A stretch of 64,000 nt of DNA. Origin: a virus. Position 1 is the stretch's first letter, and each line of letters begins with the position of its first letter. The notes under the pieces are model-generated. The model was not told where the DNA came from. It ran no database searches and was given only the letters and a program-made list of their open reading frames with translations. Location: IMG/VR virus record IMGVR_UViG_3300047472_000237, positions 18,788 through 82,787 of that record. One strand, 5' to 3'. The position numbers were made by a program, and so were the translations under genes. Shown here piece after piece: positions 22,534 to 54,547 of this stretch.

Positions 22534-23508
22534 ATGCGCCAACTATTCAACCCACGAGTCGCGTTCAAGCCGTTCGAGTACCCGGAGGTCACCGGGTATC
22601 GCGACGCGATCAACCATTCCTTCTGGCTCGTCTCGGAATGGAACTTCATCGCGGACCAGGGAGACTTCTCCCAGATGACACCGCTCGAACGCCGCGCGAT
22701 CCGCAACACGCTGCTGGCAATCTCGCAGATCGAAGTGTCTGTCAAGAAGTTCTGGGCTCAGTTGGGCGGCCGCATTCCCAAGGCCGAGTTCGACCAGGTC
22801 GGCATCACGTTCGGCGAGTCAGAAGTCCGCCACGCTGAAGCCTACAGCCACCTGCTGACCGTCCTGCACCTCAACGAAGACTTCGAGCAGATCCTGGAAG
22901 TCCCCGCCATTCGCGGCCGGGTGGACTACCTCGCCAAGTTCATGAAAGGTGCGAGCGCCTGCTCCGACCAGGAGTACGCCCTGACGCTGACGCTGTTCTC
23001 GTCCTTCATCGAGAACGTGTCGCTCTTCGCTCAGTTCGTCATCATCAAATCCTTCAACAAGCACCGCCAGGTGTTGAAGGACATCGACAATGTCGTATCG
23101 GCCACGCAGAAGGAAGAGCTCATCCACGCCGCCTTCGGCCAGTACGTCGTCAACACAATCCGTAGCGAGAACCCCGGATGGTTCGGAACGGATTTCTACA
23201 TCCGGCTCGAGGAAGCCGCTCACGCCGCGTACAAGGCGGAACGTGCTATCCTCGACTGGATCTTCGAGGCCGGCGAGCTCCCATGGCTCAGCAAGGCCGC
23301 CCTCGACCAGTTCATCCGTCAGCGGCTCAACGAGAGCCTGACGGCAGTCGGAGCGGACACGATCTTCGTCGTCGACCAGGCCCTCCTGGGCGAACTCACG
23401 TGGTTCTACGAAGAGCTCCACGCTGGCATCAGCGTCGACTTCTTCCACGTCCGCTCCGTTGACTATTCCAAGAAACAGCAGGCCGTGCAGGCAGGAGACT
23501 TGTTCTGA
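22534..23508 (+). CDS. nrdB: Class I ribonucleotide reductase, small (beta) subunit
   Basis: This 324-residue protein supplies the radical or metal cofactor for ribonucleotide reduction. It shows 'ISQIEVSVKKFW', 'GESEVRHAEAYSHLL' (Glu and His ligands, with Tyr at the usual radical position), 'SSFIENVSLFAQF' and 'QKEELIHAAFGQ' (second Glu/Glu/His set). The C-terminus 'QAGDLF' resembles the tail that docks into NrdA. It overlaps nrdA by one base (TGATG), so the two subunits are probably made in a fixed ratio. Confidence 0.9.
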   Translation: MRQLFNPRVAFKPFEYPEVTGYRDAINHSFWLVSEWNFIADQGDFSQMTPLERRAIRNTLLAISQIEVSVKKFWAQLGGRIPKAEFDQVGITFGESEVRHAEAYSHLLTVLHLNEDFEQILEVPAIRGRVDYLAKFMKGASACSDQEYALTLTLFSSFIENVSLFAQFVIIKSFNKHRQVLKDIDNVVSATQKEELIHAAFGQYVVNTIRSENPGWFGTDFYIRLEEAAHAAYKAERAILDWIFEAGELPWLSKAALDQFIRQRLNESLTAVGADTIFVVDQALLGELTWFYEELHAGISVDFFHVRSVDYSKKQQAVQAGDLF

Positions 23509-25151
23509 TGTCGTACCGATGGCTCACACCCGAATCACAGACGTTTCTCGAACGCGACTACCTCATGCCGGGGCAGACCGTGGACGAGCGGATCGATATC
23601 ATCTGCAACCGCGCGGAGGAGCTCCTGCAACGCCCAGGGCACGCGGCTCGGCTGAAGGAGTGTCTCCAGAAAGGGTGGATCACCCTCGCCTCGCCCATCC
23701 TGACCAACTTCGGCACCAGCCGGGGTCTGCCCATCAGCTGCTTCGGCAGCAGCATCGAAGACTCCATGGAGTCGATCGTCCGGACGCACGCTGAGGTGTG
23801 CATCATGACGAAGCACGGCGGCGGCACGAGCGGCTACTTCGGCAAGCTGCGTGGTCGTAATGTGCCGATCAAGGACAACGGCGTCTCGAGCGGCTCCGTC
23901 CACTTCATGCAGCTGTTCAACACGGCGATCAACGTCGTGTCCCAGGGCACCACCCGGCGCGGCCAGTTTGCCGCGTACCAGGACATCGAGCACCCCGACG
24001 TCGAAGAGTTCCTCAAGATCCGCTCGGATGGCAACAAGATCCAGGACATCCTGTTCGGGGTCTGCGTCAGCGATGCGTTCATGGAGCGGATGATCGACAA
24101 CAACGGGCCGGAGCGGGTGCTGTGGGCGAAGGTGCTCCAGAGCCGCGCGGCCATCGGTCTGCCCTACATCTTCTTCACCGACAACGCCAACCGCCAGGCC
24201 CCCGACTGCTATCGCAACGAGGGGATGAAGATCACCCACTCGAACCTGTGCACCGAGATCATGCTCCCCGACTGCGACGAAGAGTCGTTCGTCTGCGATC
24301 TCTCGAGCATGGTCGATCTGTACTACGACGAGTGGAAGGACACGCACGCGGTCGAGACGCTGGCGTACACCCTGGAAGCCGTGATGACCGAGTTCATCAT
24401 GAAGGGCCAGCATGTGCCGTACCTCGAACGCGCCGTGCGGTTTGCCCGCCGCCACCGTGCCCTGGGCATTGGCCGCGTCGGCTGGCACAGCTACCTCCAG
24501 AGCCTCATGCTCCCGTTCGAGGGCCTGACCGCCCGACTGCTGAACGCGGAGATCTCCGCCACGATCCAGCGGCAGGCTCTGGCCGCGTCGAAGGCTATGG
24601 CTGTGACCTACGGCGAGCCTGAGGTGCTGAAAGGCTACGGCCGCCGCAACGCCACGCTCATCGCCATCGCCCCGACCAAGTCGACCGCGTTCATCTTCGG
24701 TCAGCTGTCCGAGGGCATCGAGCCGTGGACGACCAACTATCAGGTCTCGAAGCTCCAGAAGGGCAGCTTCCCCATCCGCAACCGCTTCCTCCAGAAGCTG
24801 CTCGCCGCCAAGGGCAAAGACACCGAAGAGACCTGGAAGAGCATCCTGGAGCACAGCGGCTCCGTGCAGCACTTCGACTTCCTCGACAAGGAAGAGAAGG
24901 CTGTGTTCAAGACCTTCGTCGAGATCTCGCCGCTTGAGGTCGTTGAACAGGCGGCCGGCCGGCAACGCTTCATCGACCAGGGCCAGTCCACCAACCTCAT
25001 GATCCAGCCGTCGATCCCGATCAAGGACGTGAACGCGCTCCTGATCACGGCCTGGCGGAAGGGTCTCAAATCGCTCTACTATCAGAAGAGCGTGAACGCC
25101 GCACAGGAGTTCGCCCGCAACATCATGCACTGTGCCGCCTGCGAAGGCTGA
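23508..25151 (+). CDS. nrdA: Class I ribonucleotide reductase, large (alpha) subunit
   Basis: The 547-residue catalytic subunit is shorter than the bacterial enzyme (~760) because it lacks the N-terminal ATP-cone, so it should escape dATP shut-off. Visible sites: Cys78 in 'ISCFGSS', Asn246-Leu-Cys248-Thr-Glu250 (radical Cys and its neighbours), 'FVCDLSSM' for the second redox Cys, 'SLYYQKS' for the radical-transfer tyrosines, and a C-terminal 'CAAC' pair for thioredoxin or glutaredoxin. It provides dNTPs for phage DNA synthesis. A terminator follows. Confidence 0.92.
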   Translation: MSYRWLTPESQTFLERDYLMPGQTVDERIDIICNRAEELLQRPGHAARLKECLQKGWITLASPILTNFGTSRGLPISCFGSSIEDSMESIVRTHAEVCIMTKHGGGTSGYFGKLRGRNVPIKDNGVSSGSVHFMQLFNTAINVVSQGTTRRGQFAAYQDIEHPDVEEFLKIRSDGNKIQDILFGVCVSDAFMERMIDNNGPERVLWAKVLQSRAAIGLPYIFFTDNANRQAPDCYRNEGMKITHSNLCTEIMLPDCDEESFVCDLSSMVDLYYDEWKDTHAVETLAYTLEAVMTEFIMKGQHVPYLERAVRFARRHRALGIGRVGWHSYLQSLMLPFEGLTARLLNAEISATIQRQALAASKAMAVTYGEPEVLKGYGRRNATLIAIAPTKSTAFIFGQLSEGIEPWTTNYQVSKLQKGSFPIRNRFLQKLLAAKGKDTEETWKSILEHSGSVQHFDFLDKEEKAVFKTFVEISPLEVVEQAAGRQRFIDQGQSTNLMIQPSIPIKDVNALLITAWRKGLKSLYYQKSVNAAQEFARNIMHCAACEG

Positions 25152-26369: not shown

Positions 26370-27230
26370 ATGGCCTCCCAGAACTATCCCCGCGTCACGA
26401 TTGAAGACTTTGGCAAGCACCTGCTCGACGCGGGCGATCTGGATCCCATCTATCTCGGCCTCCACCGGCTGGCCCTCCCCGCGAATCAGCTTCATCGCTG
26501 GCTCCTGGCATACTGTTGCTTCTACAGCGCCGGCGTCGCTTCGTACCTCTCTGAGTTCGAGGGTGCGACCTTCTGGGAACACTTCCTCACCGCTGCCAAG
26601 AACGAGACCCCGGCCCCGCATGGCGGACGTTGGGAGCGTGGCAAGGAACGTCGCCACTTCCGTGGCGGACAGGCCATCAAGGCCACCAACGAGCTCATCG
26701 GCAAGTACCCCGTCCCCGAACTCGCCTTCAACGGGCACCTGGTCCGCCCCGGCGAGACCCGCCTACCCTTCAGCGTGGTCAGCGACCGCGCTCAGGAGTG
26801 GCGAGGCTTCGGCACCTGGATCTCCTTCAAGGTCGGCGACCTGCTCGACCGTGTCGGCATTATCCCCGTCGACTTCGCGTTTGACGAGGCGATGTACGAA
26901 GATCCGACCAAGGCCGCGATCATGCAGTGGAAGCTGCGGCGCGACCTGCCCCAGGACTCGACCATCGACGACCCGAAGGCCGCCGTGCAGGAGATCGTCG
27001 CGTACCTCATCGAGCACTTCAAGGACTATCTGGCCCCGCCGCTGCTCGACCGCCCCATCGGCCTCCAGGAGGTCGAGACGATCCTCTGCAAGTGGAAGTC
27101 GCACATCAACGGGCACTACCCGTTCTTCAACGACACGGTCGAGATCCACCACGGTGTCTCTCCCTGGGCCAACCACAGCGACACGGCCAAGCGGTTCCTC
27201 GCTGCCATGCCTCAGCCGCCGGCCAAGTAA
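26370..27230 (+). CDS. Amino acid:DNA transferase (aGPT-Pplase clade 2 / ADDT family)
   Basis: The 286-residue protein matches the helix-rich family first named alpha-glutamyl/putrescinyl thymine pyrophosphorylase clade 2, later shown to attach amino acids to phosphorylated 5-hydroxymethyluracil in DNA. Characteristic stretches are 'QLHRWLLAYCCFYSAGVASYLSE', 'GGRWERGKERRHFRG', 'WRGFGTWISFKVGDLLDRV', 'PVDFAFDEAMYEDPTKAAI' and 'GHYPFFNDT'. It is the entry enzyme for thymidine hypermodification and heads a cluster with flavoenzyme, acetyltransferase and kinase. ATG is preceded by GAAAGAA and follows the structured RNA by 13 bases. Confidence 0.8.
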   Translation: MASQNYPRVTIEDFGKHLLDAGDLDPIYLGLHRLALPANQLHRWLLAYCCFYSAGVASYLSEFEGATFWEHFLTAAKNETPAPHGGRWERGKERRHFRGGQAIKATNELIGKYPVPELAFNGHLVRPGETRLPFSVVSDRAQEWRGFGTWISFKVGDLLDRVGIIPVDFAFDEAMYEDPTKAAIMQWKLRRDLPQDSTIDDPKAAVQEIVAYLIEHFKDYLAPPLLDRPIGLQEVETILCKWKSHINGHYPFFNDTVEIHHGVSPWANHSDTAKRFLAAMPQPPAK

Positions 27231-27235
27231 TCCGT

Positions 27236-27264
27236 TTGCCTTCTGTCGCCTTTCAGTGTATCTT
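27236..27264 (+). promoter_or_regulatory. Promoter TTGCCT-N17-TATCTT, leaderless
   Basis: The -10 box ends five bases before the ATG at 27270, so the transcript should begin at or next to the start codon. No ribosome-binding site is present. Confidence 0.75.
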
Positions 27265-27269
27265 CGATC

Positions 27270-28103
27270 ATGAGCACAACAGTCAACATCATCGGGGCCG
27301 GGATCGCTGGCTCCATCACTTCAACCCTCCTCCGCACGGCAGGGTTCAACACGCGGGTCATCGACGACGCTGACAAGTTCTCCGCCAGCGCGGCGAGCTC
27401 CAACCTGTTCATCGTCGATTGGTACGACACCGACCTGAAGCAGATCGCTGACGGCTTCGACGTGCTCGAGATGCTCTACAAGGACGTGACGGAGTTCCCG
27501 TTCAAGGCCGGCATCAAGATCGCACCCCGCATGCTGCACATCGGGCAGCGTCACCTGCTGGTCAAGCCGGACGTGATCGGCACTGTGACCTACGCCGACG
27601 AGCAGGGAGTCGCCCTGGGCGACATGCAGCACTTCGATGGCCCAGTGATCCTGGCGGCCGGCTACCGCGCCAACACGCTCATCCGCGACCACGCTCAGCA
27701 CCACGACATCGAGGTCTACGCGGGCCACCGCTACCTGTTCAAGGGAGACCTGGCCGAGGGCCGCCTCGACATGGTCGCACCGTACAAGCACGGCAAGCTG
27801 TACCAGTACGCACCGGGGCAGATCTACTACGCCGACAGCGTGAAGCTCCAGCTGAAGTCCTACAACAAGCGACAGGCCGAGATCCAGGAGCGGACGCTCG
27901 CTCGTGCCCAGGCGGCACTAGGTCGTACAGACCTCGAGATCATCGACTTCCGAGTGGGGTATCGCCCTGTCATCGCTGAGAAACCGCTTGGCGTACTCGA
28001 CCGCATCAGCAAGAATGTGTGGAGTATGAACGGCGGCGGCAAGAACGGCACTGTCGCCTATGCCGGCCTCGCCCGGCAGCTTCTCGAGGAGCTCAGGGCC
28101 TGA
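27270..28103 (+). CDS. FAD-dependent oxidoreductase, probable thymidine-modification lyase
   Basis: The 277-residue protein begins with a dinucleotide-binding motif 'NIIGAGIAGS' (G9, G11, G14) and has later flavoprotein segments 'VILAAGYRANTLI' and 'YAGHRYLFKGD', with a C-terminal 'MNGGGKNGTVAYAGLARQL' typical of DadA/GlyOx-like oxidases. It is compact for that fold. Flavin-dependent lyases acting on glycyl-thymidine in phage DNA are known from thymidine hypermodification pathways, and its neighbours are the other enzymes of that pathway. I infer that it trims the amino acid to leave 5-aminomethyl-dU. Confidence 0.72.
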   Translation: MSTTVNIIGAGIAGSITSTLLRTAGFNTRVIDDADKFSASAASSNLFIVDWYDTDLKQIADGFDVLEMLYKDVTEFPFKAGIKIAPRMLHIGQRHLLVKPDVIGTVTYADEQGVALGDMQHFDGPVILAAGYRANTLIRDHAQHHDIEVYAGHRYLFKGDLAEGRLDMVAPYKHGKLYQYAPGQIYYADSVKLQLKSYNKRQAEIQERTLARAQAALGRTDLEIIDFRVGYRPVIAEKPLGVLDRISKNVWSMNGGGKNGTVAYAGLARQLLEELRA

Positions 28104-28390
28104 TGAGCAAGAAGGCCGGCAAACCTCTCCTGCCATTCTTCAAGTCGCTTCGCAAGCGCAAGAAGAAAGGGAAGAAGCGGACCATCGTAACTGACTGGGA
28201 CTTGCCGCCGATCGTGGAGAAGACGAAGACCCTTGCCGATTGCTACGAAGAGGACTACAGTGACCGCAATGCAAATCCGCCCCGCCACCCCCGACGACCA
28301 CAAACGCCTCTGCGAGATCGCCCGCTCACACCGCGCGGGGAACGGCTTCTCGAACATTCAAATGTTCAGCGGCCCGACCCACTACGCTAA
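28103..28390 (+). CDS. Small basic protein overlapping the acetyltransferase gene
   Basis: A 95-codon frame starts at the ATG overlapping the flavoenzyme stop (TGATGA). The first ~55 residues look genuine: a very basic stretch ('KSLRKRKKKGKKRTIV') and 'DWDLPPIVEKTKTLADCYEEDYSD'. The remainder is Arg/Pro-rich and overlaps the acetyltransferase frame from 28269, so it may be a non-conserved tail. A small basic DNA-binding accessory of the modification enzymes is possible. Confidence 0.45.
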   Translation: MSKKAGKPLLPFFKSLRKRKKKGKKRTIVTDWDLPPIVEKTKTLADCYEEDYSDRNANPPRHPRRPQTPLRDRPLTPRGERLLEHSNVQRPDPLR

Positions 28391-28718
28391 CGGCTGGCTG
28401 CGTGTGATGGTCGACGCCGAAGGCAAGATCGTCGCCTTCACCTGCATTCGTCAGAAGAAGACGACGAAGCAGACGAAGCTCTACTACATCATCGTGGACA
28501 CGGCGTACCGCTCCGGCGGCATCGTCGACAACAAGCCGGTCGTCGGCATCGGCCAGGCGCTCCTGGATGACCTGATCACCAACTCCCCGTATCGCGAGCT
28601 CATCTGCGACTGCCTGAAGGACAATGAGCCGGCTCTGAAGTTCTACAAGAAGAACGGCTTCGAGATCGTGGGTGAGTCCCTCAAGGGCAAGGGACACATC
28701 CTCCTGAAGAAGTGGTGA
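28269..28718 (+). CDS. GNAT-family N-acetyltransferase
   Basis: The 149-residue protein has the GNAT fold signatures: N-terminal 'MQIRPATPDDHKRL', acetyl-CoA loop 'VVGIGQALLDDLI' near 101-113, and 'DNEPALKFYKKNGFEIVGES' near the C-terminus. It lies between the flavin lyase and kinase genes. Acetyltransferases in thymidine hypermodification clusters acetylate the amino group left by the lyase; that is the likely role. The ATG at 28269 fits the family N-terminus better than an upstream TTG. Its last codons form one arm of a 12-bp inverted repeat. Confidence 0.8.
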   Translation: MQIRPATPDDHKRLCEIARSHRAGNGFSNIQMFSGPTHYANGWLRVMVDAEGKIVAFTCIRQKKTTKQTKLYYIIVDTAYRSGGIVDNKPVVGIGQALLDDLITNSPYRELICDCLKDNEPALKFYKKNGFEIVGESLKGKGHILLKKW

Positions 28719-28821
28719 GCACGGAGTGAACTTGTCGGGCCAAACCTCGTGCACGGCCTGCTTGCCTTAAATGCTGCCGCCCGGTCGAGGTCGGGAGAGG
28801 CGAATCCAGGTGCTCACCACT
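28711..28821 (+). other. Structured RNA element between acetyltransferase and kinase genes
   Basis: A perfect 12-bp inverted repeat (AGTGGTGAGCAC at 28711-28722, its complement at 28810-28821) encloses 87 bases. Inside, CCTCG/CGAGG and CCCG/CGGG helices are possible, so the whole may fold as a closed multibranch structure. The 5' arm contains the acetyltransferase stop codon, and the 3' arm ends just before a TTGAGGG ribosome-binding site for the ATG at 28834. It could couple or gate translation. Confidence 0.55.
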
Positions 28822-28833
28822 CTTGAGGGAACT

Positions 28834-29211
28834 ATGGACACCATCATCGTCGCTCATCATGTCGCACACTTCAGCTGTGCACTACTTACTCTCTTGTGCA
28901 TCGCCTACGTCGCGAAGCCGAAGGACCGTTCCCAATGCGTAACCCGACCATCGTCAATATCCGTGGCACGAGCGGCTCTGGCAAGAGCACTCTGGTCAAG
29001 GCGATATTCGCCCGCTGCACCAATGTCGAGCCAGTGCGGGCACCTTCCACCGCGAAGCGCAAGCAGCCGCTCGGCTACACGATGCAATACAACTCGCTCG
29101 GCGCGGAGAACAACCCGCAGAAGCTGTTCATCGCCGGCCACTACGAATCAGCCTGCGGCGGCTGCGACACGTTGGGGAAGTACCTTCCCGATGTCGTCAC
29201 TCCTCGTCTGA
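28834..29211 (+). CDS. Possible small membrane protein overlapping kinase gene
   Basis: An ATG with a good GAGGGA site opens a frame beginning 'MDTIIVAHHVAHFSCALLTLLCIAYVAKPKDRS', which predicts one membrane helix. After about 45 residues the frame runs through the kinase gene and becomes low-complexity (Ser/Arg/Thr). It may be a real small protein with a long overlap or a leader read to deliver ribosomes to the kinase start at 28935. Confidence 0.3.
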   Translation: MDTIIVAHHVAHFSCALLTLLCIAYVAKPKDRSQCVTRPSSISVARAALARALWSRRYSPAAPMSSQCGHLPPRSASSRSATRCNTTRSARRTTRRSCSSPATTNQPAAAATRWGSTFPMSSLLV

Positions 29212-29588
29212 TCGGCGACGACACCGAGCCGAACAGCTACCACTTGACCTTCGGCCTGGTGCGTGAGTACTGGCGGCGCGGCTACAACGTCGTGTTCGAG
29301 GGCCTGCTCATCAGCGGCGACGTGCGGCACACCAAGGCCCTCCACGACGACGCCCTCCCCATCAACGTGGTCGGCTTCGACCTGCCCGTGGACTTCTGCA
29401 TCGCGTCCGTCCTCGAGCGGCGGAAGGCCGCTGGCAACGTCAAGGAGTTCAACGAGGCCAACACGCGGGACAAGCACCGCCTCCTCGTGAACTGCCTCTC
29501 GAAGCTCGACGTGGCGGGCGTGCCCGTACAACGCTGCGGCACTCGAGAGCTCGCCTCGGACGCGGTCTACGCCCTCCTGGGCATGTAA
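28935..29588 (+). CDS. P-loop kinase, probable 5-hmdU DNA kinase domain
   Basis: The 217-residue protein has Walker A 'GTSGSGKST' (11-19) at the N-terminus, then 'FIAGHYESACGGCDTL', 'YNVVFEGLLIS' and 'VLERRKAAGN', an arrangement seen in phage nucleoside- or DNA-phosphorylating P-loop kinases. In thymidine hypermodification, a kinase phosphorylates 5-hydroxymethyluracil in DNA so that the transferase can add an amino acid. The helical domain often associated with that kinase is in the following gene. A deoxynucleoside monophosphate kinase role is the main alternative. Confidence 0.72.
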   Translation: MRNPTIVNIRGTSGSGKSTLVKAIFARCTNVEPVRAPSTAKRKQPLGYTMQYNSLGAENNPQKLFIAGHYESACGGCDTLGKYLPDVVTPRLIGDDTEPNSYHLTFGLVREYWRRGYNVVFEGLLISGDVRHTKALHDDALPINVVGFDLPVDFCIASVLERRKAAGNVKEFNEANTRDKHRLLVNCLSKLDVAGVPVQRCGTRELASDAVYALLGM

Positions 29589-29604
29589 CGTGCGACGCCG
29601 CTCC

Positions 29605-29633
29605 AGGCCGCTCCGACCCGCTCGGAGCGGCCT
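29605..29633 (+). terminator. Intrinsic terminator after kinase gene
   Basis: A perfect 12-bp stem (AGGCCGCTCCGA and complement) with a 5-nt loop is followed by CTCTTTG. It separates the kinase gene from the helical-domain gene. Confidence 0.8.
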
Positions 29634-29656
29634 CTCTTTGGCCCCGAAAGTTCAAC

Positions 29657-30565
29657 ATGATCGACGCAAACGTCAACGTCTTCTTCGCGCTCGCACGAGA
29701 GCGGTACGCCATCCAGCGCCGGCGCGAGGGGACGATCCCCAACCCGCACGCTCCCCACTTCTCGGCCAACCCGATCTTCCAGCGGTATCGGTTCTGCAAC
29801 CTGTTCCGCGAGCAGGATCGGACGACGGCCTGGTTCCGGGACACGCTGCGTGAGCCGCTCCGCAACGACGCGGCCCGCGTGCTGTTCGCCACCATCGCCT
29901 TCCGCTGGTTCAACCGCATCAGCACCGGGAAGCTCATCAGCGGCTTCCTGATGGAGGGCCACCGGACGTGGAAGCCTGAGAGCATCCGCACGATCCTGAA
30001 GGACGTGAAGCCGGTCGTCACCGGCGCGTACATCATCAAGACGCCGAACGGCATGAACAAACTCGACGGCGTGCTGTGGTGCATCGAACAGGTGCGGAAG
30101 GACATCGACCATCTTGCGGGTGCCCTGGGCCACACGCCGCCCGATGAACGCTCGCTCGAAGGCACGTGGGAGGCGCTCCGCCAGTTCCCGTATCTCGGCG
30201 ACTTCATGTCGTACGAAGTCGTCACGGACTTGCGACACACCTGCTGGCTCGACCAGGCGTCCGACCGCTACACGTGGTGCAATCCTGGCCCAGGGTGTAC
30301 GCGGGGCCTCGGGTGGGTCGTCCACGGCGACTTCGACCGCTGGAACAGGAGCTCGAAGACCGACCGCGCGGCCATGCAGCCTCACCTGGAGAAGCTGCTC
30401 GAGCTCGCCAACAGCGACAGCGAGCTCTGGCCCGACGACTTCCCGGACTGGGAGATGCGCGAGGTCGAGCACTGGCTCTGCGAAGTGTGCAAGTATGTCC
30501 GCGTTGAGAGCGGCGGCTCTCCGCCGAAGGAAATCTTCAGGAATGCGCTTGCCTCCGTGAAGTGA
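29657..30565 (+). CDS. 5-hmdU DNA kinase helical-domain protein (aGPT-Pplase clade 1 type)
   Basis: The 302-residue protein carries the pattern 'NPIFQRYRFCNLFREQDRTTAWF', followed by 'FRWFNRISTG' and later 'HTCWLDQASDRYTWCNPGPGCTRGL', the signature of a DNA-glycosylase-related helical family first called aGPT-Pplase clade 1 and since linked to 5-hmdU DNA kinases. It has no P-loop; the kinase domain is encoded by the gene before it. Together they may form the DNA kinase, with this part recognising 5-hydroxymethyluracil in DNA. No clear promoter or strong ribosome-binding site precedes its ATG. Confidence 0.68.
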   Translation: MIDANVNVFFALARERYAIQRRREGTIPNPHAPHFSANPIFQRYRFCNLFREQDRTTAWFRDTLREPLRNDAARVLFATIAFRWFNRISTGKLISGFLMEGHRTWKPESIRTILKDVKPVVTGAYIIKTPNGMNKLDGVLWCIEQVRKDIDHLAGALGHTPPDERSLEGTWEALRQFPYLGDFMSYEVVTDLRHTCWLDQASDRYTWCNPGPGCTRGLGWVVHGDFDRWNRSSKTDRAAMQPHLEKLLELANSDSELWPDDFPDWEMREVEHWLCEVCKYVRVESGGSPPKEIFRNALASVK

Positions 30566-30577
30566 ACGGGATAACTT
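30549..30577 (+). promoter_or_regulatory. Promoter TTGCCT-N17-TAACTT, leaderless
   Basis: The -35 box lies in the last codons of the preceding gene. The -10 box ends seven bases before the GTG at 30585, so the HNH message would be leaderless and start with GTG. Confidence 0.65.
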
Positions 30578-30584
30578 CGCCGCA

Positions 30585-31127
30585 GTGCGTCGATTCAAGG
30601 CAGCGAAACCTCTGGCCCGTATCACCGACGAGAGCGTCAAGGCGCGGCTGGAAGAGAATCGGCGGCTCGCTCCCTGTCCGGTTGCGGCCTACGTGCCGGA
30701 CGGCAGCCCGCTGAAGGGCGACTGCTGGGAGTGGACTGGATGTGCCCCGGATGGGTACGGCCAGATCAAGGTCGCGGGCGTCGTGCAGCGGGTGCACCGC
30801 GTCTCCTTCGCCGTGTACAAGGGCGAAGTCCCGAGGAAGATCACCGTCGATCACCTCTGCCACAACCCGAAGTGTTTCAATCCAGAGCACCTGGAACTAC
30901 AGACTGCCGCCATCAACTCTGGCTACAGTCGCATGGAGTACCGATATGATTGTTCTCAAGGCACGCAATGCCCACCAGGCCCTGCCGGAGATGATGCACC
31001 AGGTCCAGAGCAACGACAAAGCGGTGACGCGGTCGAGCCGGAACGGGCCTGTGATCCAGTTTGTGGAGCCGTTCACGATCCAGTACGCGAAGCCGACGGA
31101 GCGGGTGGTGTTCTGGCCGGAACGTGA
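30585..31127 (+). CDS. HNH endonuclease overlapping the thymidylate-synthase homologue
   Basis: The 180-codon frame starts at GTG. 'CWEWTG' near residue 47, 'GYGQIKVAG', and 'VDHLCHNPKCFNPEHLEL' (about 88-105, with Asp-His and the two Cys) identify an HNH-3 type nuclease, usually a free-standing homing or nicking endonuclease. From about residue 121 the frame overlaps the next gene by 182 bases and becomes Gly/Pro-rich, so the natural C-terminus may have been lost on insertion. Its place beside a thymidylate-synthase gene is a classic homing target site. Confidence 0.72.
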   Translation: MRRFKAAKPLARITDESVKARLEENRRLAPCPVAAYVPDGSPLKGDCWEWTGCAPDGYGQIKVAGVVQRVHRVSFAVYKGEVPRKITVDHLCHNPKCFNPEHLELQTAAINSGYSRMEYRYDCSQGTQCPPGPAGDDAPGPEQRQSGDAVEPERACDPVCGAVHDPVREADGAGGVLAGT

Positions 31128-32022
31128 CGCCAACCCGTTCTTCCACCTGTTCGAGTCGCTCTGGATGCTCGCCGGCCGCAACGACGTGGCCTATCCCGCC
31201 CGCTACTCCAGCAACATCGGTCAGTTCAGCGACGACGGCCAGACGTTCCACGGCGCGTACGGTCACCGCTGGCGTCGACACTTCCAGCTGACCGACGAGA
31301 TGACCGGCCGCTCGCAGCCCATCGACCAGCTGAGCACCATCGCCGCCGCGCTCAAGGCCAACCCGGAGGACCGCCGCCAGGTGCTGTCGATGTGGGACGC
31401 CACGGTCGACTTGGGCCGACAGGGCAAGGATCTCCCCTGCAATCTCCAGATCGTCTTCCAGCGTGACCACAACGGCCGCTTGAACATGACGGTGTACAAC
31501 CGCTCGAACGACATCCTGTGGGGTGCTCTCGGCGCGAACTGCGTCCACATGAGCTACCTCCAGGAGTACATGGCGGCGGCCATCGGCTGCGAGGTCGGAC
31601 AGTATTGGCAGATCTCCGCCAACATGCACGCCTACACGGAGCTCACCCCGCTCCTGAAGAAGTGCCTGCCGCTCGACGACCACTGTTGGCCCTCGTCCGG
31701 CTACAAGCACACTGACCCGTACGAAGGGGCCATCGAGCCGTTCCCACTGGTCAACACGCCCCTGGCCCAGTGGGAGGGCGAGCTCCGCATGTTCATCGAT
31801 GAGCCGACCGCCATCGGCTTCCGTGACCCGTTCTTCCGCCGGGTGGCGTCGCCGCTCGCAGCGGCCTACGTCAAGTTCAGTGACCGCAGCGACCCGCACC
31901 GCTTCGAGCACGCCTTCAATGCCCTGAACAGCGCGGCCAACTGCGACTGGCGGCTCGCCGCCTTCGAGTGGCTGACCCGCCGCGAAGCCGCTGCGAAGTT
32001 GAAATCAACCACGGCTCAGTGA
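30946..32022 (+). CDS. Thymidylate-synthase homologue, probable dUMP hydroxymethylase
   Basis: The 358-residue protein has the thymidylate-synthase core: 'FHGAYGHRWR', catalytic Cys165 in 'DLPCNLQIVFQ', and 'RSNDILWGALGANCVHMSYLQEYMA' (186 onward). The Asn at about 198 matches the uracil-recognising Asn of thymidylate synthase rather than the Asp of dCMP hydroxymethylase, so dUMP is the likely substrate. With hypermodification enzymes upstream, it most likely makes 5-hydroxymethyl-dUMP, although ordinary dTMP synthesis cannot be excluded. ATG follows ATGGAG. Confidence 0.8.
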   Translation: MIVLKARNAHQALPEMMHQVQSNDKAVTRSSRNGPVIQFVEPFTIQYAKPTERVVFWPERDANPFFHLFESLWMLAGRNDVAYPARYSSNIGQFSDDGQTFHGAYGHRWRRHFQLTDEMTGRSQPIDQLSTIAAALKANPEDRRQVLSMWDATVDLGRQGKDLPCNLQIVFQRDHNGRLNMTVYNRSNDILWGALGANCVHMSYLQEYMAAAIGCEVGQYWQISANMHAYTELTPLLKKCLPLDDHCWPSSGYKHTDPYEGAIEPFPLVNTPLAQWEGELRMFIDEPTAIGFRDPFFRRVASPLAAAYVKFSDRSDPHRFEHAFNALNSAANCDWRLAAFEWLTRREAAAKLKSTTAQ

Positions 32023-32029
32023 GCCTGTC

Positions 32030-32104
32030 TGACGCGATGGTCCAGATGGTAGGGCCGTGGGCTCATAACCCGCTGCATCGAAGGTTCGACTCCTTCCGCG
32101 TCAG
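32030..32104 (+). tRNA. tRNA with CAU anticodon, initiator-like anticodon stem
   Basis: A 75-base cloverleaf: acceptor TGACGCG/CGCGTCA, D-arm with AGATGGTA loop, anticodon stem GTGGG/CCCGC with CAT at 32064-32066, and T-arm GAAGG-TTCGACT-CCTTC. CCA is not encoded. Three consecutive G:C pairs next to the anticodon loop are the hallmark of initiator tRNA, but the first pair is U1:A72 rather than the C1 A72 mismatch. There is one extra base before position 8. It starts eight bases after the previous stop codon and ends three bases before the next ATG. tRNA-Ile with modified CAU is an alternative. Confidence 0.85.
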
Positions 32105-32107
32105 CTT

Positions 32108-32521
32108 ATGTCGAAAATCTACCTCATCTGCCCCGTCCGCAACGTGTCGAAGGACCAACTCGATGCGATGACGCTCTACGTCGCCAGCCTCGAACGGGAT
32201 GGCCACACGGTCCACTTCCCGAACCGGGACGTCGACCAGAGCAACGACGACGGCGGCGTTCGCATCTGCGACGAGCACCGCGCGGCGATGCATGAGTGCG
32301 ATGAGGTGCACACCTTCTGGGATCCGCTTTCGTACGGCTCCCACTTCGACCTGGGCATGGCGTTCATGCTCAGCTACGCCCGTGAGCAGATGGGCGGGGC
32401 ACCGATCCGCTTCGTGGTGGCGAACCACACCGAGCGAGTGCCCGTGAAGTCCTTCCAGAATGTTCTCGTTCGCCTGTGTGAAAGTGAAGACGACTATGAC
32501 ATCGACTACCCCAATCATTGA
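32108..32521 (+). CDS. Nucleoside 2-deoxyribosyltransferase-like protein
   Basis: The 137-residue protein opens 'KIYLICPVRNVSKDQLDAM' and contains 'VHTFWDPLSYGSHFDLGMAFM', the nucleotide-binding pattern of the nucleoside deoxyribosyltransferase / DUF4406 fold. The usual catalytic Glu of 'FELG' is Asp here. Such proteins exchange or hydrolyse deoxynucleoside bases and could remove unmodified nucleotides or recycle 5-hydroxymethyl-dU. Its ATG is three bases after the tRNA 3' end and has no ribosome-binding site, so tRNA processing would leave a leaderless message. Confidence 0.65.
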   Translation: MSKIYLICPVRNVSKDQLDAMTLYVASLERDGHTVHFPNRDVDQSNDDGGVRICDEHRAAMHECDEVHTFWDPLSYGSHFDLGMAFMLSYAREQMGGAPIRFVVANHTERVPVKSFQNVLVRLCESEDDYDIDYPNH

Positions 32522-35701: not shown

Positions 35702-35956
35702 ATGCTGACGACACTGCTGTACATCTTCCTCGGCTGCTTCATCGCCTCCGCCGCGATCGACGTGATCAAGCTGGCGTGCACCTGGGTGCTCTTCCTCGCC
35801 TGCCTCGTCCTGTACGACTGCACGTTCCTCTTCGCCACCTACGACGCCTGGACCGGCTGGTTCTGGGACAGCAAGAAGGGGCGGCTCTACGTGTTCCCCA
35901 TCCCGATGTTCGGCTTCTACTTCGACTTCAAAGAGGATCCCACTTATGTCATGTGA
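35702..35956 (+). CDS. Small membrane protein
   Basis: The 84-residue product has two overlapping hydrophobic stretches ('LLYIFLGCFIASAAIDVI' and 'LACTWVLFLACLVLYDCTFLF') followed by an aromatic-rich C-terminus. It sits between polymerase and dCMP deaminase genes, with AGGAC before its ATG, and overlaps the next gene by 11 bases. It could be a small inner-membrane protein; a holin is possible but unsupported. Confidence 0.5.
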   Translation: MLTTLLYIFLGCFIASAAIDVIKLACTWVLFLACLVLYDCTFLFATYDAWTGWFWDSKKGRLYVFPIPMFGFYFDFKEDPTYVM

Positions 35957-36503
35957 CAACACCGACGGCCCTTGCTCGTGCGGAGCCTGGCACAAACCTG
36001 GCGACGGCACGTTGGGGTACATCCAGCCCGCATTCAATACGTGGGACATCCGCTTCCTCGAGCTCTCCGACCACATTGCTCTCTGGAGCAAGGATCCGTC
36101 CACCAAGTGCGGCGCGGTCATCGTGCGGCCCGACCGCAGCGTGGTCAGCGTCGGCTACAACGGCTTCCCCCGTGGCATGAGCGACGCCCCGGAGCTCTAC
36201 GCCGACCGTGAGGTCAAGTACGACCGCGTCATCCACGCCGAAGTCAACGCGATGATGTCGGCCCACCAGAGTGTCAAGGGGTGCACGCTCTACACCAACG
36301 CCCCCTGCTGCTCACGCTGTGCCGTCCACATGATCCAGGCCGGCATCACCAAGTTTGTCTTCTGGTCGCCGCTCCCCGGCCAACGCGAGCGTTGGGGCAC
36401 CGACAAGTCGATCGGCTACATGCGAGAAGCCGGCGCGATCGTCATCGAAGTTTCACGCGGGCCGGCTGTATTGCCTGTTGCTCAAGAAACTCAACCAGGG
36501 TAA
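35946..36503 (+). CDS. dCMP deaminase
   Basis: The 185-residue zinc enzyme shows His97-Ala-Glu99 ('HAEVNAMM') and 'PCCSRCAVHMI' near 120-130, the zinc and catalytic site of deoxycytidylate deaminases, plus 'STKCGAVIVRPDRSVVSVGYNGFP'. It converts dCMP to dUMP, the substrate of the thymidylate-synthase homologue, and so links nucleotide supply to the modified-base pathway. An unusual N-terminal Cys-rich segment ('CDNTDGPCSCGAWH') precedes the domain. Its TAA stop is part of the next promoter's -10 box. Confidence 0.88.
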   Translation: MSCDNTDGPCSCGAWHKPGDGTLGYIQPAFNTWDIRFLELSDHIALWSKDPSTKCGAVIVRPDRSVVSVGYNGFPRGMSDAPELYADREVKYDRVIHAEVNAMMSAHQSVKGCTLYTNAPCCSRCAVHMIQAGITKFVFWSPLPGQRERWGTDKSIGYMREAGAIVIEVSRGPAVLPVAQETQPG

Positions 36504-41079: not shown

Positions 41080-41889
41080 ATGGCCGCTGAACCCCGCACC
41101 AAGTTGAAGTTCGTCGATGCTCCCGAGTTCAAGGTGCGGAAGCACCGCAAGGAGCTCGACGACATGGCCTTACCTGCCATCCCGCCGGCGTTGCACTACG
41201 AACCCGGCCAGGGACGTTCTTCCTCCGCTGTCACGTACGTCATGACGCGAGAGGAAGAGCGGGGCCGGTTCCTCCAGCTGAACTGGCTCAAGCGGCAGCA
41301 CAACACCGCCATCAAGGACGAGGAGAAGGCCGCCCACTTCGTCAAGCAGATCACGCACCTGGTCGAGTACCTGGTCCGCACGAATCTGCCGCTTGTCTAC
41401 AGCCAGGTCGCCCGCAACCTCGCTCGATACCAGAAGCTCGACTGGAACGAATCGGTCAGCGAGGCTCAGCTGTCGCTCATCCGCGCGGTCAACGGGTACA
41501 ACTGCCAGTTCGGCATCAAGTTCAGCACTTATGCTTGCCGCATCATCCTCAACGCGTTAAACTCCGCCAACCAGAAGGCGGCGAAGCGGCAGTCCCGAGT
41601 GCACGACGCCTTGGTTCCTGAACACTACGGCGAGTCCGAAGACATCGCTCAGGAAGTGAACCAAGACGTGGAGCTCATCGACGCGATGAACCACGTCCTG
41701 TCCGAGAACGCGGCCGACCTCTCCGACGTGGAGAAGACGGTCGTGCAACGTCGGTACGGCTTGGGCGACCAGGAAGCTCAGACGCTCGAGGAGATCGGCA
41801 ACGACATCGGCGTCAGCAAGGAACGCGTCCGCCAGATCCAGAACAAGGCGCTCGGGAAGCTCAAGAAAGCGATGACGGTGTACGCATGA
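41080..41889 (+). CDS. Phage RNA polymerase sigma factor (sigma-70 family)
   Basis: The 269-residue protein has sigma region 2 ('LVEYLVRTNLPLVYSQVARNL', 'EAQLSLIRAVNGYNCQFGIKFSTYACRIILNAL', about 90-165) and region 4 ('LSDVEKTVVQRRYGLG', 'TLEEIGNDIGVSKERVRQIQNKALGKLKKA', about 205-265), with little or no region 1.1. The lysine/arginine-rich region-4 helix would contact -35 DNA. It probably directs host RNA polymerase to the repeated phage promoters. ATG 41080 is preferred because it lies seven bases from the -10 box. Confidence 0.9.
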   Translation: MAAEPRTKLKFVDAPEFKVRKHRKELDDMALPAIPPALHYEPGQGRSSSAVTYVMTREEERGRFLQLNWLKRQHNTAIKDEEKAAHFVKQITHLVEYLVRTNLPLVYSQVARNLARYQKLDWNESVSEAQLSLIRAVNGYNCQFGIKFSTYACRIILNALNSANQKAAKRQSRVHDALVPEHYGESEDIAQEVNQDVELIDAMNHVLSENAADLSDVEKTVVQRRYGLGDQEAQTLEEIGNDIGVSKERVRQIQNKALGKLKKAMTVYA

Positions 41890-44110: not shown

Positions 44111-44848
44111 ATGGCCGTGAAGATCTCAATCATCAACCACTCCCACAAGGGATACGCGGACACCATCCCCGGCGTCCCATCCCTCGTCGACCTCGCCTTC
44201 GCTGATCCCCCGTACAACTTCGGCGTCAAGTACGCCGACGATCCGACCAAGGATCGCATGACGCCCGCCGCCTACGAAGACTTCTGTAGCGGCATCATCT
44301 ACACGATGTCGCAGAACCTGAAGCCGGGCGGCACCGCCTGGTGGCTGTGCCCGTCGGCGCACATGGACTTCATCCCGGCGCTGATGACCAAGCACGTCGG
44401 CCCGCTCATCTATCGGATCATCAAGACCGAGACGTTCGCCCAGTACCAGCAGGCGAACTTGACCGACGACTACCGGATGTTGTTCGTGGCCCAGAAGCCT
44501 GGCGGCCCGCTGACCCTGAACCCGGACGCGATCCGCATCCCGTCCAAGCGGCAGGAGCTCTACAAGGACAAGCGTGCTGACCCGCGCGGTCGCGTCCCCG
44601 GCCAGACTTGGGAGATCCGCCGCCTCCAGGGCACCAGCACCGACCACGTCGACTGGCACAAGGCTCAGCTTCCGCCCGAACTACTCTCACGCATCGCCCT
44701 CGGTTGGACAAACCCCGGCGACACAATCCTCGATATGTTTGCAGGCTCCGGCAACTTCGCACTCGTGTGCAAGGCCCTCGGCCGCAACTTCTACGGCGTC
44801 GATCAATCCCCCACGTACGTCGGCAAGATGAAGGAACGGATAGCGTAA
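44111..44848 (+). CDS. DNA adenine/cytosine-N4 methyltransferase
   Basis: The 245-residue enzyme has the catalytic motif Asp32-Pro-Pro-Tyr35 in the N-terminal part and the AdoMet-binding motif 'DMFAGSGNFALVCKALGRNFYGVD' in the C-terminal part. This motif order is that of the beta class of N6-adenine or N4-cytosine DNA methyltransferases. No restriction partner is seen, so it is probably an orphan methylase that protects or marks phage DNA, adding to the thymidine modification. It overlaps the next gene by one base. Confidence 0.88.
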   Translation: MAVKISIINHSHKGYADTIPGVPSLVDLAFADPPYNFGVKYADDPTKDRMTPAAYEDFCSGIIYTMSQNLKPGGTAWWLCPSAHMDFIPALMTKHVGPLIYRIIKTETFAQYQQANLTDDYRMLFVAQKPGGPLTLNPDAIRIPSKRQELYKDKRADPRGRVPGQTWEIRRLQGTSTDHVDWHKAQLPPELLSRIALGWTNPGDTILDMFAGSGNFALVCKALGRNFYGVDQSPTYVGKMKERIA

Positions 44849-45432
44849 TGTCGAACACCATCAAACTGAACACGTCGCATCGTGATGCCATCCAGCGGAA
44901 GCTCATCGAGAACAAGTTCAGCCCGCGCGAGAAGCAGCTGGTCCTGGACAACGAGAAGCTGGCCCTGGACGTCTACCACGCCACCTTCTCGCCCTCAGAG
45001 CGGAAGAAGATGGACGAGCTCCCGGTCGGCTGGCTCCGCCGCGTGCACACCATCCGTGCCCGCCTGGGCGGCGTCGACTTCGGCTACAAGCTGGCCGGCA
45101 AGAAGAGCGTACCGATGCCAGCTGAGAAGTGCGACACGTACAACGAGCAGAGCACCTTCCTGCTCGCCGTCAGCGACGGCCCACTTGCGGTCGAGGCCCG
45201 CCGGCTCGAGCGGGAGACGGAAGCGATCAAGACCGAGAAGGAGAAGCTGCGGAGCGAGATCCGCTCCGTGCTCTTCAACGCGACGACCGCCAACCGCCTG
45301 ATCACCCTCTGGCCGGAGATCAAGCCGGTGGTCGACGCAGTGCTGTCGGTGTACGTCGTGCAGCAGAACCTCCCGGCACCGCGCGTCGAAGACCTCAACA
45401 AGGCCCTGGGCCTGAAATCTGTCGCAGCCTGA
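44848..45432 (+). CDS. Hypothetical helical protein, possible Nmad5-like
   Basis: The 194-residue protein starts 'IKLNTSHRDAIQRKLIENKFSPREKQL' and is helical throughout, with a coiled coil at about 118-140 ('ARRLERETEAIKTEKEKLRSE') followed by 'VLFNATTANRLITLWPEIKPVV'. The pattern recalls the nucleotide-modification-associated domain 5 family of phages, though I hold this loosely. It overlaps the methyltransferase gene (TAATG) and is probably co-translated with it. Confidence 0.5.
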   Translation: MSNTIKLNTSHRDAIQRKLIENKFSPREKQLVLDNEKLALDVYHATFSPSERKKMDELPVGWLRRVHTIRARLGGVDFGYKLAGKKSVPMPAEKCDTYNEQSTFLLAVSDGPLAVEARRLERETEAIKTEKEKLRSEIRSVLFNATTANRLITLWPEIKPVVDAVLSVYVVQQNLPAPRVEDLNKALGLKSVAA

Positions 45433-45678: not shown

Positions 45679-45989
45679 TGGTCTACGTCGACACCATCCA
45701 GAACTATGGTGGCAGCGCCTCCTTCAAGTGGAAGGACAGCTGCCACATGTACGCCGACACCCTGGACGAGCTCCACGCCTTCGCCAAGAAGATTGGCCTC
45801 AAGCGTGCCTGGTTCCAGGACAAGCGGCTACCCCACTATGACTTGAACAAGGGCCGACACGCCGCCGCGATCAAAGCTGGAGCGATTCAGCACGACCTCC
45901 GACAGGCGTACGACTTCTGGACAGTCAAGGGGTGGACAAGGCGGAGCCAACCACAACCTGATTCTCAACCGGAAACACTGTTCCCATGA
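45678..45989 (+). CDS. DUF4031-family protein
   Basis: The 103-residue protein has the DUF4031 pattern: N-terminal 'MVYVDTIQNYG', 'CHMYADTLDELHAFAKKIGLKRAWFQDK' and 'HYDLNKGRHAAAIKAGA'. Members are common in phages and bacteria; the function is unknown, and the conserved Asp, His and Tyr residues suggest a nucleotide-related enzyme. It overlaps both neighbours by one to four bases, so the group 45460-47005 is one operon. Confidence 0.75.
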   Translation: MVYVDTIQNYGGSASFKWKDSCHMYADTLDELHAFAKKIGLKRAWFQDKRLPHYDLNKGRHAAAIKAGAIQHDLRQAYDFWTVKGWTRRSQPQPDSQPETLFP

Positions 45990-47005
45990 AGCACAAGAAG
46001 ACCCTGTTCATCGCGAAGAAACGTCACACCAGCGACGGCTACACGGGGGCCAGCTACGGCCTGATCAATTCCGCCCGCTTCGTGGCGGAGACCCTCGACC
46101 GCATCGGCATACGCTCGCCGGTTTGGGAAGTGGACGACGCGAACAGCATCGACCGCGCCGTGACCAAGCACGACCCGAAGTGGGTGTTCATCGAGGCCCT
46201 CTGGGCAACGCCCGAGAAGCTGCTCGAGATCATGTCCCTGCCCAGGCACAGCGAACGCACGTTCGTCGTCCGCGTGCACAGCAAGCTGCCGTTCCTCGCC
46301 AACGAGGGGATGGCCTTCGACTGGCTGTCGCGGTACAAGAGCACCAACCCCCGGCTGATCATCGCCCCGAACTCGCCGGAGTTCACCCGCGACCTGCTCG
46401 ACCTCGACTACAACGCGGTCTACCTGCCGAACATCTACGTGCCAGGCGACGCCACCGGCGCTGGCTGCACGATGAACGACGGCACCGCCATCGAGATCGG
46501 TTGCTTCGGAGCTCTGCGGCCGATGAAGAACCACCTGCTCCAGGCGGTGGCCGCAATGCGGTTCGGCGACCACGTCGACCAGAAGGTGCGGTTCCACATC
46601 AACGCGACTCGTCAGGAGCAGCAGGGAGACAACGTCCTGAAGAACCTCCGGGGCCTGTTCGCCGGCTCGAGGCACGAGCTCATCGAGCAGCCGTGGATGG
46701 ACCACCCGACGTTCCTCCGCCTCGTCCGCTCGATGGACCTGGCCCTCCAGGTGTCGCTGAGCGAGTCGTTCAACATCGTGGCGGCCGACTGCGTGGCGTG
46801 CGGCGTGCCCATCGTCGTCAGCCCTGACATCAGCTGGCTCCCGTCCAACTGCAAGGCGTCGCCGAACTCGACCGAGGAGATCGTCTACCGCCTGCGGAAG
46901 ATGTGGAGCTACAACCGCGTCGACATCGCTCACAAGCAGCACGACTATCTCCGCGCGTACAACATCAACGCCCTCCGAGAGTGGCGGAGTTTTCTTCGTG
47001 TTTGA
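45986..47005 (+). CDS. Glycosyltransferase (GT-B fold, GT4-like)
   Basis: The 339-residue protein has the GT-B donor-site pattern 'IEIGCFGALRPMKNHLLQAVAAM' (about 170-192) and 'VSLSESFNIVAADCVACGVPIVVSPDISWL' (about 257-285), as in family 4 glycosyltransferases. The N-terminal half begins 'KKTLFIAKKRHTSDGYTGASYGLINSA'. It could glycosylate virion proteins, host surface polymer or modified DNA bases; the operon gives no decisive clue. The start overlaps the DUF4031 stop (ATGA). Confidence 0.75.
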   Translation: MKHKKTLFIAKKRHTSDGYTGASYGLINSARFVAETLDRIGIRSPVWEVDDANSIDRAVTKHDPKWVFIEALWATPEKLLEIMSLPRHSERTFVVRVHSKLPFLANEGMAFDWLSRYKSTNPRLIIAPNSPEFTRDLLDLDYNAVYLPNIYVPGDATGAGCTMNDGTAIEIGCFGALRPMKNHLLQAVAAMRFGDHVDQKVRFHINATRQEQQGDNVLKNLRGLFAGSRHELIEQPWMDHPTFLRLVRSMDLALQVSLSESFNIVAADCVACGVPIVVSPDISWLPSNCKASPNSTEEIVYRLRKMWSYNRVDIAHKQHDYLRAYNINALREWRSFLRV

Positions 47006-53680: not shown

Positions 53681-54547
53681 ATGTCGCAACGCAACCTTAT
53701 GGACGGCTTCATCAGCCACCTGTGCTCCGAACGCCGCCTGGCGGACGAGACCGTGGAAGCGTACCGGCGCGACGTCCACGCGGCCAACACCTACCTGAAG
53801 ACGCTCGGCGTCGAGCTCGCCACGGCTACCCTGGAGCACATCCAGACGTACGTGCGAAGCCGCTCGCAGATGGGCCACTCGGCCGCTACGGTCGCCCGCA
53901 ACATCGCGGCCATCCGCTGCTTCCTGATGTACCAGACCGCCCTGGGCCAAGACCGCACGGCGGTGGCTGAGGCGATGGAACGGCCCAAGGGCGAGCAGCG
54001 GCTTCCGACGATCATCAGTGAGGCCCAGGCGGCGGCCATGATGGACGTGCCCCTCGGCGCTCCTCTGGCCCTCCGGGACAAGGCGATGCTCGAACTGTTG
54101 TACGGCTGCGGCCTTCGTGCAAGCGAGCTTGTGGGCGTGCGGATCGACGCCCTCGACCTGGCGGCTGGCACCCTGCGGGTCATCGGCAAGGGTGACCGCG
54201 AGCGCGAGCTCCCGCTCAATGCTACGGCCGCTCGAGCCGTCGCCGCGTACCTGGAGGCCCGCCCGCCCTCAAAGCACCCGACGCTCTTCCTGAGCTACCG
54301 GGGCGAGCCTCTGGACCGCATCGCGCTGTGGCACATCGTAGGCCGCCACGCCGAACGGGCCGGCATCTGCAAGCACGTGCACCCGCACGTCCTGCGACAC
54401 GCCTTCGCCAGCCACATGCTCAGCGGCGGGGCCGACCTTCGCGTCATCCAGGAGATGCTCGGCCACGCCGATGTCACCACGACGCAAGGGTACGTCCACG
54501 TGGATATTAAACGCCTGAAAGGTGTGCACGCCCTACTCGGACGGTGA
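53681..54547 (+). CDS. Tyrosine recombinase, XerD-like integrase
   Basis: The 288-residue protein has the N-terminal core-binding SAM-like domain ('FISHLCSERRLADETVEAYRRDV') and the catalytic residues Arg146 ('GLRASELVG'), a Lys in 'VIGKGDRERELPL', His236 and Arg239 ('HVLRHAF'), His262 ('GHADVTTTQGY') and nucleophile Tyr271. Its size and sequence are nearer to XerC/XerD than to lambda integrase, and it has no arm-binding domain. It may integrate the phage or resolve genome multimers. It is probably leaderless. Confidence 0.9.
   Translation: MSQRNLMDGFISHLCSERRLADETVEAYRRDVHAANTYLKTLGVELATATLEHIQTYVRSRSQMGHSAATVARNIAAIRCFLMYQTALGQDRTAVAEAMERPKGEQRLPTIISEAQAAAMMDVPLGAPLALRDKAMLELLYGCGLRASELVGVRIDALDLAAGTLRVIGKGDRERELPLNATAARAVAAYLEARPPSKHPTLFLSYRGEPLDRIALWHIVGRHAERAGICKHVHPHVLRHAFASHMLSGGADLRVIQEMLGHADVTTTQGYVHVDIKRLKGVHALLGR

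Follow-up and report, generated by a model that had tools for sequence, protein, structure and literature searches.

Gene content of the cluster

We analysed a 64,000-nucleotide stretch of viral DNA (the window), which spans bases 18,788–82,787 of the 82,787-base IMG/VR virus record IMGVR_UViG_3300047472_000237, and focused on a gene cluster at 26370–32022. From sequence comparison and structural modelling, the cluster very probably encodes a route of the phage PaMx11 type to 5-acetylaminomethyl-2'-deoxyuridine (5-AcNmdU) in phage DNA. A preliminary description had placed six genes here. All six open reading frames (ORFs) are present at those positions on the plus strand, and a codon-usage gene call recovered 6/6 as coding; five of the six sat in its training set, and the call is independent for the GNAT gene only. 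The cluster runs as follows.

26370..27230, + strand: amino acid:DNA transferase (ADDT), PaMx11 gp46 homologue (PF18724, 1.1e-21; phrog_6364, 1e-91)
27270..28103, + strand: FAD-dependent lyase of the N-alpha-glycinylthymidine lyase (gp47/NGTO) fold family, divergent clade (DAO PF01266, 3.4e-11; phrog_16743, 4e-18)
28260..28718 (GTG start at 28260 or ATG start at 28269), + strand: GNAT acetyltransferase, PaMx11 gp48 homologue (PF13508, 1.7e-8)
28935..29588, + strand: P-loop part of a split 5-hydroxymethyl-2'-deoxyuridine (5-hmdU) DNA kinase, PaMx11 gp49 homologue (phrog_800, 9.5e-15; Walker A motif GTSGSGKST conserved)
29657..30565, + strand: helical part of the 5-hmdU DNA kinase, PaMx11 gp50 homologue (HMUDK_hel PF18723, 1.5e-36; phrog_2396, 3e-52)
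30946..32022, + strand: thymidylate-synthase (TS) homologue, predicted dUMP hydroxymethylase, PaMx11 gp51 homologue (Thymidylat_synt PF00303, 5e-22; phrog_5131, 9e-134)

The first and fifth proteins, on whose membership in modification families the preliminary description depended, match PF18724 and HMUDK_hel well above the curated cut-offs. ADDT is 52% identical to PaMx11 gp46 and 51% to the ADDT of phage M6, and it matches PDB entries 8z2m and 8z2n, deposited as 'Glycinyltransferase', over nearly its full length (E-value 5.9e-82). Among the matches listed for ADDT, none at E < 1e-5 comes from Salmonella phages, which give 160 matches to the TS homologue; the window protein therefore sides with the M6 and PaMx11 transferases. 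Judged by sequence, it is probably glycine-specific. Glycine is reportedly the donor in both PaMx11 and M6 (Lee et al., NAR 2022; Wen et al., NAR 2024).

Both kinase parts resemble PaMx11-type phages most. The P-loop protein reaches 37–38% identity over 99% of its length in tblastn comparisons, and the helical protein is 47–49% identical to PaMx11-type counterparts and about 31% to those of the M6 type. We rejected the name 'terminase small subunit' that phrog_800 would give to the P-loop gene, since in every related cluster that has the two kinase parts this gene is a near neighbour of the helical one; the PaMx11 and M6 records carry the same label for the P-loop gene of their clusters. The TS homologue is 56% identical to Bordetella phage proteins annotated as thymidylate synthase/deoxyuridylate hydroxymethyltransferase, and its Cys165 and Asn198 are invariant. 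Asn198, invariant across nine phage homologues, aligns with an Asp of CMP hydroxymethylase (5b6d) and is the 'uracil-type' asparagine that had been proposed for this protein.

The GNAT gene is real, but its start had been set at 28269, and the GTG at 28260, preceded by AGAGGA, is probably the true one. In a tblastn search of about 50,000 phage records (E below 0.01), all 15 matching records were PaMx11-type phages, and all 15 matches were acetyltransferases (35–42% identity). The gene directly follows the lyase gene, and its phage relatives occupy the same slot of the cluster. Its structural model has a normal GNAT fold. Contig L017 shows the gene order of the window, HNH insert included, and the two GNAT proteins share 61% identity. 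Between the FAD and GNAT genes, a small basic ORF (MSKKAGKPLL...) starts at 28103; it was not called coding.

Comparison with PaMx11, M6 and Simon

The order of the six genes is identical to that of gp46–gp51 in Pseudomonas phage PaMx11 (NC_028770), which encode ADDT, an FAD oxidoreductase, an acetyltransferase, a P-loop protein, a helical protein and TS, and it recurs in the close PaMx11 relatives Ab19, PA_LZ03 and Lucjan. In both PaMx11 and the window, ribonucleotide reductase genes precede the cluster and a family A DNA polymerase (PolA) gene follows it; the reductase subunits of the window (22534–23508 and 23508–25151) were read as such from their sequences, with no profile scan. TerL is 59% and PolA 55% identical to the best isolate matches, which for both are PaMx11-type phages. 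Hence, we consider the window phage a distant relative of Abidjanvirus (Mesyanzhinovviridae, Bradleyvirinae), the group of PaMx11.

The two systems also differ. The FAD enzyme shares only 25% identity with gp47, the window has an HNH and a tRNA-Met insert, and it holds an additional gene, Nmad5, which was not found in the PaMx11 record; in turn, the PaMx11 HD gene (gp52) has no match in the window. The record is larger, at 82.8 kb versus 59.9 kb for PaMx11 and 57–60 kb for the PaMx11-type Abidjanvirus records compared.

Phages of the type of Pseudomonas phage M6 and YuA, which make 5-NedU, share with the window ADDT, TS (58% identity) and the split kinase, although the M6 kinase proteins are only 26–35% identical to those of the window. 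Where the window has its FAD and GNAT genes, M6, CN2 and SN1 carry pyridoxal-phosphate (PLP) enzyme and radical-SAM genes. Neither the radical-SAM (PF04055) nor the PALP (PF00291) profile matched anything in the 82.8-kb record, and the M6 gp52/gp53 versions, which match many other loci, found nothing in the six-frame ORFs of the window. These searches agree with the preliminary description, which had seen no radical-SAM or PLP gene, and we rejected M6-type 5-NedU chemistry because the genes for it were not found in the record. Phages of the Simon type share ADDT, the FAD lyase, the kinase and TS with the window, but instead of GNAT they carry two other genes, one Amidoligase_2-like and one for a low-molecular-weight phosphatase. 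The Simon Amidoligase_2-like protein has no match in the window, whereas 17 other contigs match it; an Amidoligase_2 profile search of the record also gave no match, but its control matched nowhere either, so we base the negative on the Simon protein.

GNAT genes accompany the FAD lyase

To compare related modules, we ran hidden Markov models built from the aligned cluster genes on all fetched loci, of which 124 were unique after removal of duplicates. Alignment-based searches were needed, as single-sequence scans of viral contigs with the ADDT and FAD proteins matched nothing. In the 93 modules that combine ADDT with the two kinase parts, the FAD lyase is present in 22/22 modules with GNAT versus 32/71 without it (Fisher test, P-value 7e-7), and PLP or radical-SAM genes occur in 0/22 and 31/71, respectively (P-value 4.5e-5). 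These P-values are indicative only, as the counts treat related contigs as independent and the lyase served as the seed of one search. Loci fetched by way of ADDT alone, a set that was not de-duplicated, gave a similar picture (FAD lyase in 13/13 with GNAT versus 15/53 without; PLP or radical SAM in 0/13 versus 31/53). Together with the PaMx11 gene order, the matches to a solved glycinyltransferase and a solved N-alpha-glycinylthymidine lyase, and the empty radical-SAM and PLP searches, this argues for the short lyase–acetyltransferase branch that the preliminary description had favoured.

In 17 unique contigs, the position after the FAD lyase is occupied not by GNAT but by an Amidoligase_2-like gene, which never occurs together with GNAT and often has a gene for a low-molecular-weight phosphatase behind it. 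Examples are L012:3965-5378 (phage Simon), L052, L054, L056, L065, L066, L088, L089 and L091. Its match to the Pfam family is weak, with scores of 25.7 and 16.5 bits versus a cut-off of 22; the product could attach an aminoacyl group to 5-aminomethyl-dU. The survey shows this node of the pathway to be modular: in the modules examined, the FAD lyase is followed by an acetyltransferase or by an amidoligase-like gene, but never by both.

The flavin enzyme belongs to a divergent clade of the lyase family

The FAD enzyme matches PDB entries 8z2o and 8z79 ('Flavin-dependent lyase') over its full length by sequence (E-value 2.4e-14), and a profile of its own clade reaches 1.7e-26 to 8z2o, the next PDB sequence being at 0.0034. 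In a Foldseek search with the AlphaFold model (pLDDT 92.6), the top three entries were those of PaMx11 gp47, the 5-N-alpha-glycinylthymidine FAD-dependent lyase (best E-value 4.9e-21, TM 0.85), and the next entry, iminodiacetate oxidase, followed ten orders of magnitude behind (2.5e-11). The FAD-motif glycines, W51, P171, D189, R232, P233 and K258 are invariant in 28 sequences, and the window enzyme keeps the GGxKNG motif. R232 is part of a GxRP motif. Glycine oxidase uses a comparable Arg to bind the carboxylate of its substrate; by analogy, R232 as a carboxylate binder would fit a glycyl adduct. We keep the lyase assignment. However, because the enzyme sits on a divergent side branch of that family, we infer the chemistry of the flavin step only from the fold and the conserved residues.

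The divergence is greatest in this gene: the other five cluster proteins are 37–56% identical to their PaMx11 counterparts, and in comparisons of Simon and L062 with PaMx11 the FAD gene shows no such lag behind its neighbours. The closest relatives of the window enzyme are those of L015–L018 (44–46% identity). Either gene replacement or fast change may account for the divergence. In seven other loci (L019, L022, L025, L028, L034, L041 and L046), a divergent ADDT adjoins a divergent FAD enzyme, and the fetched flanks hold none of the remaining cluster genes; L019 and L028 have FAD enzymes with the His and the D-S motif of the window clade.

Predicted pathway and its alternatives

In the predicted pathway, the TS homologue would turn dUMP into 5-hydroxymethyl-dUMP, to be incorporated into DNA as 5-hmdU, and the two-gene kinase, to judge from its family, would phosphorylate 5-hmdU in the DNA. 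ADDT would then swap the phosphate for glycine, as its identity to the PaMx11 protein and its match to the solved glycinyltransferase suggest, giving N-alpha-glycinylthymidine, that is, 5-carboxymethylaminomethyl-dU. In DNA, this base corresponds to the cmnm5U of tRNA, and the proposed flavin step has a parallel in the FAD domain of MnmC, which removes the carboxymethyl group from tRNA cmnm5U to give nm5U (PMC9626948). Both enzymes would take the carboxymethyl group off a 5-carboxymethylaminomethyl-uracil, but MnmC acts on the wobble U of tRNA, and the window enzyme matches it in sequence at the Rossmann level only (TIGR03197, 7e-5, far below the cut-off). By its fold and conserved residues, the FAD enzyme would oxidise the glycyl C–N bond in an MnmC-like manner, so that the two glycyl carbons are removed and 5-aminomethyl-dU is left. 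The GNAT, given its position and its exclusive co-occurrence with the lyase, would acetylate the exposed amine, and 5-acetylaminomethyl-dU is the most likely product. The modification would affect some thymines of the phage DNA and most likely serves as protection from host restriction, the role published for related modifications (PMC6449724). The pathway as such is not new: it is already known from PaMx11 (N-alpha-glycinylthymidine to 5-NmdU to the acetylated base), whose DNA reportedly carries 5-AcNmdU (Lee et al.; Wen et al.), and was to be expected from published work. What is new, at the level of sequence, is a flavin enzyme in a deep, well-supported side clade. The PaMx11 pathway is thereby extended to a distant, larger relative, and the divergent enzyme offers a natural test of which lyase residues matter.

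Several observations weigh against 5-AcNmdU as the product. The low identity of the flavin enzyme to gp47 extends to PaMx11-type lyases in general (25–30%), well behind the neighbouring genes, and it is 25–29% identical to the lyases of Epa5, Simon and L062. In the maximum-likelihood tree it forms a clade with L015–L018 at 100/100 support on a branch of 3.51, and in this clade the APYRQ and DG[ST]A of PaMx11-type enzymes are changed to APY.H.K.YQ and D[ST]V. Two of the four clade neighbours, L015 and L016, have clusters without GNAT, so the lyase and GNAT are not strictly tied within the clade. The window GNAT has an insertion next to the acetyl-CoA loop (about residues 78–91), where confidence in the model is low. 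The FAD enzyme and its L015–L018 relatives might represent a flavin enzyme of distinct function that took over from the gp47-type lyase in an otherwise PaMx11-like cluster. Acting on another amino-acid adduct, or yielding a different oxidation product, it would lead to an acylated thymidine derivative that is related to 5-AcNmdU but not the same. The acetylated base would then be a new hypermodified thymidine, which the unlinked Nmad5 protein might elaborate further. We regard this as unlikely: the fold, the FAD motif, W51, D189, R232–P233 and GGxKNG are retained, gp47 is by far the top match in both structure and sequence, and the ADDT that would supply the substrate is of the PaMx11/M6 type.

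A different role of the GNAT is less probable still. Phage GNATs have been predicted to modify host RNA polymerase (PMC7824862), and a window protein of this Rac-like kind would leave the base at 5-aminomethyl-dU. The model of the GNAT is indeed nearest to protein N-terminal amine acetyltransferases, and in L015 the lyase is followed directly by the kinase. Yet in the modules compared, GNAT genes accompany the FAD lyase without exception and are never found with the PLP/radical-SAM branch, and the only phage relatives of this GNAT are encoded at the equivalent place of the same cluster. We give least credence of all to a broken cluster that leaves plain thymidine or 5-hmdU in the DNA. An HNH gene has entered the operon, but all frames are open with good codon usage, and the Walker A motif, the TS Cys and Asn and the FAD motifs are intact.

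Inserts, neighbouring genes and unlinked genes

Further features lie within the cluster, close to it or elsewhere in the window.

30585..31127, + strand: HNH endonuclease ORF (PF13392, 2.2e-11; PF05551, 1.5e-7)
32030-32105: tRNA-Met(CAU), directly after the TS gene
35946..36503, + strand: dCMP/cytidine deaminase-family protein (PF00383, 4.6e-19)
44848..45432, + strand: Nmad5 (nucleotide modification associated domain 5) protein (PF18757, 1.8e-19)

The HNH ORF, which the preliminary description did not mention, sits between the helical kinase and TS genes, and its 3' end overlaps the TS gene. It is probably a homing endonuclease with no part in the pathway. Since comparable HNH ORFs precede the TS gene in L015, L017 and L108, recurrent homing into this spot is suggested. 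A tRNA-Pro (CGG) is found elsewhere in the record (L002:11847-11935). The ORF right after tRNA-Met (32108-32521) encodes a 137-aa protein with no Pfam or PHROG match that by eye resembles nucleoside-deoxyribosyltransferase-like proteins. The deaminase-family gene, a linked precursor gene outside the core, is a possible source of dUMP.

The cluster itself is complete, but one end of the record may be absent, and with it an unlinked gene. The Nmad5 gene is situated some 13 kb downstream of TS and adjoins a DNA N6/N4 methyltransferase gene (44111-44848); Nmad5 genes are located inside M6-type clusters, and the unlinked protein of the window is a possible accessory part. A GT4-like glycosyltransferase gene (45986-47005) follows the methyltransferase and Nmad5 genes. 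We left it out as a base glycosyltransferase because its best Pfam match is below the cut-off and it has no relative in the phage collection; a search of 14 records with related clusters, run without a positive control, likewise gave 0 relatives. The window further encodes a sigma-70-like factor (41080-41889), a tyrosine integrase (53699-54547) and an ATP-dependent DNA ligase (55945-57066).

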